Source: an uncultured Geobacteraceae bacterium
GTDB lineage: Bacteria > Desulfobacterota > Desulfuromonadia > Geobacterales > Pseudopelobacteraceae
NCBI GenBank assembly: GCA_903930585.1
Contig: CAIYZD010000180.1
Span: 1 to 47,792, forward strand
Direction of reading: 5' to 3'
Length of the DNA stretch: 47,792 nucleotides
The position numbers were made by a program, and so were the translations under genes. The first letter of the stretch is position 1. The number at the start of each line of letters is the position of its first letter. Positions 32,160-33,740 of this stretch are shown in pieces. The notes under the pieces are model-generated. The model was not told the DNA's origin. It made no database searches and saw only the letters and a program-made list of their open reading frames with translations.

Positions 32160-32954
32160 ATGAACCACCCATACAGTTTCGAACGCCTCGTATCGATCAT
32201 GCAACAGCTCCGCGCCCCCGGCGGTTGCCCCTGGGACGCGGAACAGACCCACGAGAGCCTGACTCGCTATCTGCTGGAGGAAACCTACGAAGTCATGGAA
32301 GCTATTGACGAAAAATCTCCCCAACATCTCAAGGAAGAGCTGGGAGATCTGCTGCTGCAACCGGTTTTTCACGCAGCAATTGCCGCTGAGTCAGGCCACT
32401 TCACCATTGACGATGTTATTGCGACACTCTGCGATAAGCTGATAAGGCGTCATCCCCATGTATTTGGCGACCTTGAAATCAATAGCAGCGACCAGCAGAT
32501 AGTAAATTGGGAGAAGATCAAGAAACAGGAAAAAGGGGACGAACGGCCATCGGCTCTTTCGGGAGTTCCCGACCATCTTCCGGCTCTCCTGAAGGCTCAC
32601 AAAATAAGTGAAAAAGCATCACGGGTCGGATTTGACTGGGAACATGCCGACCAGGTATTTGCCAAAGTCATGGAGGAACTGCACGAATTTGAAGAAGCAT
32701 GGGCCGGGGGAGATCCGGCGCGTATGGAAGACGAAATGGGTGACTTGCTGTTTGCAATTGCAAACCTGGGGAGATTTTTACAACTCAATCCGGAAGAAGC
32801 GCTGCGTAAAACCATAAACCGTTTTCAAAAGCGTTTCTGCCATGTCGAAGCCGAGTTGCTCCGCCAGGGAGTGCCGATGCAAAACGCCACACTTGAAGAG
32901 ATGGATGAGCTCTGGGAACAGGCAAAACGTGCCGAGCGTGTGAGTAAAATATAA
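32160..32954 (+). CDS. mazG: Nucleoside triphosphate pyrophosphohydrolase MazG
   Basis: 264 aa from the ATG at 32160; the open frame extends further upstream, but only from here does it match the family (YSFERLVSIMQQLRAPGGCPWD). Two tandem MazG domains are present, with the metal-binding LLEETYEVMEAI and GDLLL in the first, and VMEELHEFEEAW and DEMGDLLFAIANLGR in the second. It hydrolyses (d)NTPs to NMP and pyrophosphate as a house-cleaning enzyme and, in E. coli, modulates ppGpp. It is divergent from sbcDC. Confidence 0.96.
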   Translation: MNHPYSFERLVSIMQQLRAPGGCPWDAEQTHESLTRYLLEETYEVMEAIDEKSPQHLKEELGDLLLQPVFHAAIAAESGHFTIDDVIATLCDKLIRRHPHVFGDLEINSSDQQIVNWEKIKKQEKGDERPSALSGVPDHLPALLKAHKISEKASRVGFDWEHADQVFAKVMEELHEFEEAWAGGDPARMEDEMGDLLFAIANLGRFLQLNPEEALRKTINRFQKRFCHVEAELLRQGVPMQNATLEEMDELWEQAKRAERVSKI

Positions 32955-32976
32955 TGTGGCACCACGATGTCACTGT

Positions 32977-33041
32977 TTTTACACAATTGTTATTTTTATC
33001 CACAAAAATTGTGGAAAACTTGTGGAGAACATTGTGGACGC
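32977..33041. other. Cluster of DnaA-box-like sequences
   Basis: Within 65 nt of the 237-nt gap between mazG and ogt: TTTTACACA (32977-32985, +), TTATCCACA (32996-33004, +, the perfect E. coli consensus), TTTTCCACA (33010-33018, -), TTCTCCACA (33021-33029, -) and the partial GCGTCCACA (33033-33041, -). A sixth box, TTATACACA, lies at 33209-33217 (-) inside the end of ogt. An AT-rich stretch follows (33050-33125), with a small palindrome ATAGGA-TAC-TCCTAT. It could be a replication origin or a DnaA-titration/regulatory site. dnaA itself is not in the window. Confidence 0.6.
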
Positions 33042-33191
33042 TATGCAAAAGCAATATTTTTACAACTGTTTTGTCCAAAATGCCGTTTTTTTATACATAG
33101 GATACTCCTATATATTTCAACAAGTTACAGTCATTGCTGTAAAAATAGGGAGTTGCGTTGTCAAGCTCTTTTTGCACTGCACGTAATTTTG

Positions 33192-33740
33192 TTACTGATG
33201 AGAAGTTCTGTGTATAACTGCATGATGTCTAATGGCTAACACCCCTTTGAATTCAACACCTTCCATCTGTAACAGCGCCTTTTTTGTACTCTCTCCACCC
33301 GGTGCTGAAAAACCGGTCAGTCGTCCATCCGATGCGACGACCCGGTGACACGGGATAATAATCGGAACCGGATTTGAAGCCAACGCCCCCCCCACAGCCC
33401 GGGCCGCATGAGGCGAGCCGCACATATGTGCAACCTCCCCATAACTGCATATTTCGCCAAATCCAAGGGTGCGAATTACCTTCAGGACCGTGCGCCGAAA
33501 CGGAGTTATGGCGTCAAATAATACCGGAATCGAGCTGAAATCAATACATTCACCCTGAAAGTACCTCTCAAGCATATGAGCAACCTGGACCGTTGTTTCA
33601 GACGACTCGAATTCAGGCAACGTGACCGGGGCTGTCGTTTGATTGCAACTCAAATCCGGTATTTCAACTTTTACCACCCCATGATCGGCGGCATACACGA
33701 TTCCGGCTCCATAACGGGTTATAAATTGCGAACAGTACAT
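33192..33740 (-). CDS. ogt: Methylated-DNA--protein-cysteine methyltransferase
   Basis: 182 aa. The active-site motif PCHRVV (in IIIPCHRVVASDGRLTGF) contains the acceptor cysteine that takes alkyl groups from O6-alkylguanine. The winged-helix part (FGEICSYGEVAHMCGSPHAARAVGGAL) is typical. The N-terminal ~85 residues form the variable Ogt/Ada domain. It is a suicide repair protein. murJ ends 6 nt upstream on the same strand, so the two are probably co-transcribed. Confidence 0.94.
   Translation of the reverse strand: MYCSQFITRYGAGIVYAADHGVVKVEIPDLSCNQTTAPVTLPEFESSETTVQVAHMLERYFQGECIDFSSIPVLFDAITPFRRTVLKVIRTLGFGEICSYGEVAHMCGSPHAARAVGGALASNPVPIIIPCHRVVASDGRLTGFSAPGGESTKKALLQMEGVEFKGVLAIRHHAVIHRTSHQ

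Follow-up and report, generated by a model that had tools for sequence, protein, structure and literature searches.

A conserved multi-part DnaA-box element between mazG and ogt in Desulfuromonadia: a candidate DARS-type site

Organization of the Locus

The window, i.e., the whole stretch of 47,792 nucleotides analysed here, is contig C180 from an uncultured Geobacteraceae bacterium whose assembly comprises 854 contigs and 5.89 Mb. A cluster of DnaA boxes sits in it between the convergent genes mazG and ogt. The features of the locus are as follows, with offsets (+n) given relative to position 32996, where box I starts:

32160–32954, plus strand: mazG, upstream neighbour (TIGR00444, 308 bits)
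32996–33004, plus strand: DnaA box I, TTATCCACA, exact TTWTNCACA
33010–33018, minus strand: DnaA box II, TTTTCCACA, opposing box I across 5 bp
33021–33029, minus strand: DnaA box III, TTCTCCACA, one mismatch, in the orientation of box II after a 2-bp gap
33033–33041, minus strand: weak box IV, TGTGGACGC on the plus strand, three mismatches, oriented as boxes II and III
33081–33097, no strand assigned: TGC-N12-CA block, TGCCGTTTTTTTATACA, at +85, often TGCCTATTTTTTAGGCA in relatives, a form that agrees with the Fis consensus
33115–33127, plus strand: IHF-like motif, TTTCAACAAGTTA, at +119, matching 8/9 of the IHF consensus used, WATCAANNNNTTR
33192–33740, minus strand: ogt-type alkyltransferase gene, convergent neighbour (TIGR00589, 96 bits)
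33209–33217, minus strand: distal DnaA box, TTATACACA, at +213, within the 3' end of ogt

An earlier sequence-only reading of this DNA had described the cluster, and it proves to be real: boxes that fit TTWTNCACA exactly begin at 32977 (plus), 32996 (plus), 33010 (minus) and 33209 (minus), and near-boxes stand at 33021 and 33033 (both minus). The same reading held that such a density is unlikely by chance, which is borne out by the observation that three exact boxes within 42 bp (32977, 32996, and 33010) occurred in none of 400 Markov-1 shuffles, and neither did four exact boxes within 241 bp, the fourth being 33209 (0/400). Over the whole window, nine exact boxes are found vs. 3.4 expected, a number that was attained in one of 100 shuffles. 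The AT-rich stretch is likewise present, the window copy having a GC content of 0.33 over the first 180 bases 3' of mazG, and dnaA is indeed not adjacent, as it lies on a different contig (C123).

Just two of 30 same-genus sequences have an exact box at 32977, so this box is probably incidental. It represents a variant of an inverted repeat located just upstream of box I, where positions 32973–32984 read CTGTTTTTACAC in the window and CTGTTTTTACAG in many same-genus sequences. The counterparts of weak box IV in relatives are TGTTGACGA or TGTGGATAA-like.

Conservation and Distribution of the Core

Thirty same-genus sequences 3' of mazG align across the cluster and retain the boxes at 32996, 33010, and 33021 as a unit. 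The consensus of this core is TTATCCACA-5-TGTGGATAA-2-TGTGGAnAA, with 26 scored positions. When the first 300 bp 3' of mazG were scored in 97 sequences, those with the element reached 22–26/26 and all others 16 at most. Mean pairwise identity among 28 same-genus sequences (two others, carrying an insertion or ending early, were removed) is highest in the core (0.917), followed by the TGC block (0.896) and the 50 bp directly after the core (0.794). The IHF-like block, at 0.672, lies barely above the remaining intergenic sequence (0.606), and the four-fold sites of mazG stand at 0.422. The core and the TGC block, whose identity exceeds that of both the intergenic remainder and the mazG four-fold sites, are very probably under selection.

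A sequence-only model built from 64 sequences (R1) was run against 58 genomes including the window's own. Its best match lies 3' of mazG in 50 of the 57 genomes with mazG, at a distance of 30–169 bp in 43 and of 0.98–1.84 kb in seven; in one genome (G049) the best match lies close to the end of a different contig, and in six it is not by mazG. A mazG 3' UTR or terminator was rejected on the seven genomes with the 0.98–1.84-kb distance and the six without a match by mazG; inserted genes and altered neighbours speak against mazG itself playing a part. In two of these six genomes (G037 and G043), no core was found in the stretches around mazG and the best R1 matches are weak. Across the class, 198 of 277 genomes show R1 matches at E 1e-8 or better; the E-values of this AT-rich model are generous, and only checked sites are counted. 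Among 20 further class or order sites that were extracted, the core is present in all 20 (21–24/26), with mazG in the stretch for 17.

The element sample used below consists of 101 distinct sites picked by core from 138 loci; 13 loci were discarded because they were too short or lacked the core, and the remaining exclusions were duplicates. Box I opposes boxes II and III, the arrangement of a DARS core, both in the window (32996–33029) and at the 101 sites. The spacing of the core template was fixed, so that the 5/2 spacing (I–II/II–III) is partly built into this result, and sites found by R1 were also selected for the TGC block.

Sites Outside the Class and Away From mazG

A strict core-only pattern found nine matches when run on 395 genomes of the phylum (Desulfobacterota), as opposed to none for the reversed control. 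Four of the nine are in the class, and another four belong to one genus of a family outside it (f44), where they lie on contigs that differ from that of dnaA. None of six mazG-region genes sought near these four f44-family sites was detected. All four carry TGC-N12-CA at +85 and the IHF-like motif at +118, and two of them a full Fis match. The ninth match, also outside the class (G588, L328:3301), is located 3' of mnmE near yidC, with dnaA on another contig; it has a TGCC-N9-GGCA block and no IHF match of at least 8/9 at +118 to +120. In the window's genome, mnmE and yidC (named by eye) stand beside dnaA, and the G588 match could be an origin-linked site.

Fifteen further sites with the core lie away from mazG, in members of the window's genus and of the rest of the order (L311:4160 on C21 and L312:4513 on C572 of the window's genome, G000; L313, L314, L315, L316, L317, L318, L319, two in L320, L322, L329, L331, and L332). 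The exact 5/3 spacing is seen in 13 of them; L317 and L318 fit 5/2 better. A TGC block occurs at +83 to +86 in 15/15, a full Fis match in 14/15 and an opposite-strand IHF-like motif at +107/108 in 5/15. The neighbours of the two sites in the window's genome include CheR/CheW-like and glycogen-phosphorylase-like ORFs, as named by eye. Several R1 matches at E 1e-8 or better per genome were observed in genus g28 of the order (four in G231, four in G234, and five in G235), and two further matches in G231 (L283 and L284) show the core together with the TGC block.

Accessory Motifs at Fixed Offsets

In 98 of the 101 sites, TGC-N12-CA is found at +84 (31) or +85 (67). All six fixed positions of the Fis consensus GnnYAnnnnnTRnnC (as given in PMC8682772) are matched by the block at +85/86 in 46/101 sites; a match anywhere in the 80-bp slice is present in 47 sites vs. 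3.6 expected. The block of the window fits only four of the six positions.

A match of at least 8/9 to the IHF consensus stands at +118 to +120 in 58/101 sites, where other offset triples reach at most 8/101 with a mean of 0.5. The perfect consensus occurs anywhere in the slice in 18 sites vs. 1.0 expected. Since R1 ends short of the IHF-like motif, the model did not select for it. A near-equal consensus, TAAnnnnTTGATW, appears in the description of PMC8682772. The motif of the element holds additional conserved bases (TCARnnAGTTACA) that are unneeded by IHF, and it shows A or G at a position for which IHF prefers A; because of the additional bases it may be bound by a protein other than IHF. 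Past the motif, another conserved stretch at 33157–33172 reads GTTGTCAAGCTCTTTT in the window and GCTGTCAAGC in much of the genus.

Of the 30 same-genus sequences, 19 carry an exact copy of the distal box at 33209. An exact minus-strand box at +190 to +224 is found in 36/101 sites, 34 of these at +211 to +216; simple arithmetic on the box frequency of the window predicts fewer than one. This box often falls into the 3' end of ogt, and in 10 of the 36 cases it lies in a locus without detected ogt. Owing to its recurrence at +211 to +216, also where no ogt was detected, the 33209 box probably belongs to the element.

Position Relative to dnaA and oriC

The sequence-only reading had considered an unexpected oriC, to be checked by GC skew and by comparison with the dnaA–dnaN region. 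Both checks speak against it. The skew shows no inversion at 33 kb in the window, i.e., none at the site, and the sign change is found on C123 between approximately 20 and 28 kb, around dnaA (24.5–26.0 kb). This contig also harbors a second box cluster: a single exact box immediately precedes dnaA, another lies within the gene and three occupy the dnaA–dnaN gap. In a relative (G041), the cumulative-skew minimum, derived from 20 samples, adjoins dnaA; the site is found some 0.7 Mb beyond the maximum, where the curve is falling. For G046 and G057 the noise was too high for a reading, two of the G046 samples being mostly masked.

The shorter distance between site and dnaA ranges from 0.156 to 0.487 of the contig in 18 relatives with both on one long contig (G205 was left out, as its two lie on different contigs; four lengths are rounded, and two refer to the main contig where the assembly has two or three). 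In these relatives the site is located outside oriC, between oriC and terC, as expected of DARS; in the window's genome dnaA is on another contig. In Escherichia coli, DARS1 is placed at 0.81 Mb and DARS2 at 2.97 Mb in the account of PMC5742627, which by arithmetic on these positions is 0.34 and 0.20 of the chromosome from dnaA. Skew, the position of dnaA and the distance from it thus rule against reading the site as oriC. The alternative proposal of the same reading, a DnaA sink or regulatory locus, is supported by an ordered box core that is conserved class-wide and far from dnaA wherever this is measurable. In Desulfuromonas soudanensis, DnaA boxes predicted by Ori-Finder adjoin dnaA in the account of PMC4914508, where mazG goes unmentioned.

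Comparison With Known DnaA-Control Sites

In the description of PMC5742627, DARS is defined by a box I opposite boxes II and III, by equal spacing at both sites and by a head-to-head contact. The DARS1 and DARS2 cores used here were taken from E. coli K-12. DARS1, located between bioD and uvrB (the uvrB–ybhK interval contains no boxes), has the core TTATCCACT-5-TGTGGATAA-3-TGTGTATTA and scores 23/26 against the element template; DARS2, upstream of mutH, has the core TTATTCACC-5-TGTGGATAG-3-TGTGAAGAA and scores 22/26. Box orientations and the 5-bp gap between boxes I and II are identical to those of the element, whereas boxes II and III are 3 bp apart in E. coli and 2 bp apart here, the 3-bp gap being that of 13 of the 15 further sites. 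A template scan of 1.165 Mb from three genomes of the order, without a box I filter, yielded nothing above 18/26. The datA region of E. coli (L323), which likewise combines DnaA boxes and an IHF site outside oriC, and for which DnaA boxes 2, 3 and 7 grouped about a single IHF site are the defining feature, reaches 19/26 at best and contains no face-to-face triple core.

E. coli DARS1, unlike the element, has no IHF consensus of at least 8/9 within 330 bp of box I. DARS2 has an 8/9 match on the same strand at +109, ten bases nearer than the +119 observed here, a second match on the other strand at +93, a Fis match at +145 and an exact distal box at +211 (vs. +213 here) in the opposite orientation; these are sequence matches and may differ from the published IBS, FBS, and boxes IV–VI. 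The module order is core, IHF, Fis in DARS2 as opposed to core, Fis-like TGC block, IHF-like motif in the element, and the two differ in class and gene neighbourhood, and in that no Fis was identified here on the basis of HTH_8 matches. Bacillus subtilis also possesses DnaA-box clusters outside oriC and is portrayed as having no Hda, IHF, datA, or DARS (both by the description in PMC13220808).

Discussion

The locus is very probably a DnaA-binding site that is maintained by selection and distinct from oriC. As to its function, we lean, with confidence little better than even, toward a DARS-type site that would reactivate DnaA, as opposed to a sink or a datA-like site; confidence is held at this level because geometry alone speaks for DARS. 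The core is conserved as a unit, away from dnaA, together with the TGC block (+84/+85) and the IHF-like motif (+118 to +120). Furthermore, the core geometry is that of DARS1 and DARS2 apart from the gap between boxes II and III, with datA and the 1.165-Mb background scoring lower, the exact E. coli 5/3 spacing recurs at some related sites, and the four core-found sites of one genus outside the class repeat the offsets of the TGC block and the IHF-like motif. Conversely, several points weigh against DARS: the confinement of Fis to gamma-proteobacteria related to E. coli, as put forward in PMC4245941, together with the mere 4/6 Fis positions of the window's TGC block; the module order and distal-box orientation, which differ from E. 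coli DARS2; the IHF-like motif, weakly conserved in the genus and with non-IHF bases; and the lack, in 58 genomes, of any Hda-type match over the Hda cut-off.

The chief rival to the DARS reading is titration (sequestration), in which high-affinity boxes would merely hold DnaA, as proposed for E. coli chromosomal boxes and for six B. subtilis DnaA-box clusters in the texts of PMC12371093 and PMC13220808. Strong boxes, the non-oriC place and more such sites elsewhere in the genome fit this accepted idea; titration, however, needs no set orientation, no 5/2 spacing and no motifs at fixed distances, all of which are conserved here, and we regard it as rather unlikely. A datA-like site, at which IHF and DnaA boxes would promote ATP hydrolysis and thus inhibit initiation, draws on the IHF-like motif between the core and the distal box, the latter suiting DARS2-like and datA-like readings alike. 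It is nonetheless improbable given the missing triple-box geometry of the E. coli datA region, and datA is described as acting mainly through head-to-tail contacts (PMC5742627), whereas boxes I and II of the element face each other.

The conserved intergenic sequence could also be read as a DnaA-controlled promoter or a small RNA gene between mazG and ogt, all the more as DnaA doubles as a transcription factor. The two genes are convergent, however, and the core persists where the surrounding genes vary, which leaves this reading very improbable. The RNA gene in particular was rejected: at gathering scores no Rfam family is found at the site, the only hit being a tRNA at the left end of the window, and RNAalifold on 64 sequences returned no consensus structure and no pair. 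Phage records gave no match. Finally, a second or alternative replication origin has hardly any probability left, for although the boxes adjoin AT-rich DNA and the G588 core match lies near genes that flank dnaA in the window's genome, the skew flip and further boxes at dnaA, the G041 minimum and the distances in 18 genomes all point elsewhere.

If the DARS-type reading is correct, ADP-DnaA, produced by an Hda-like inactivator, would assemble on the core, where boxes I and II would force a head-to-head AAA+ contact, leading DnaA to release ADP. A DNA-bending protein (IHF) and a protein on TGC-N12-CA would shape the complex, and the freed apo-DnaA could take up ATP and start the next round at oriC. 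In E. coli, DARS is depicted as preferring ADP-DnaA, and DnaA molecules on boxes I and II are proposed to sit head to head, a contact tied to ADP release (both PMC5742627).

DARS has been treated as a trait of E. coli and its relatives in the DARS literature as represented by PMC4245941 and PMC5742627, the former placing the DARS2 core in gamma-proteobacteria related to E. coli only. The part of the open-access literature searched yielded no description of a comparable site among relatives of Geobacter. We propose, tentatively and with less than even confidence, that DARS-type reactivation is not a speciality of the E. coli family: Desulfuromonadia and at least one genus of another class of the phylum would carry a multi-part nucleoprotein site in up to several copies per genome, its components (a face-to-face DnaA core, a TGC-N12-CA site, an IHF-like bend and, in many cases, a distal box) being set at fixed distances, and DNA-templated nucleotide exchange on DnaA would be either ancient or have arisen twice with one geometry. 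If so, the use of dedicated chromosomal sites to control whether DnaA carries ATP or ADP would be general and reach another phylum, and the rules of spacing and accessory proteins could be read from natural variation (5/2 vs. 5/3, with or without the IHF-like motif).

Candidate Partner Proteins

Among the matches listed, a separate Hda-like ORF of 134–160 bits is present in 54 of 58 genomes; it is partial in G008 and G012, and for G020 and G026 the listed matches comprise DnaA alone. No Hda-type match in the 58 genomes reached the Hda cut-off of 194.8. With an Hda-like ORF in almost all of the genomes, a co-occurrence test with Hda is uninformative. That of the window's genome carries MQQFFEFP near its start, which we take to resemble a clamp-binding motif and which is out of register with the E. 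coli Hda motif when aligned. A source of ADP-DnaA, and a need for recharging, is plausible. In the DnaA of this genome, Leu290 and Asp269 (named for DARS action) as well as Arg285 and Arg334 are retained, which says little because DnaA is conserved throughout.

The genome contains 18 HU/IHF-family matches; four of the seven that were scanned exceed the IHF-alpha cut-off (NF001401), and one of the seven is just under that for IHF-beta. HTH_8, a model not specific for Fis, has 47 matches, 46 of them in frames of at least 251 aa. A 110-aa ORF with a C-terminal Fis-type helix-turn-helix was noted at L321:1472–1804 (contig C564 of the same genome), beside an ORF that is NtrC-like by eye, and is a possible candidate for the protein that binds the TGC-N12-CA site.
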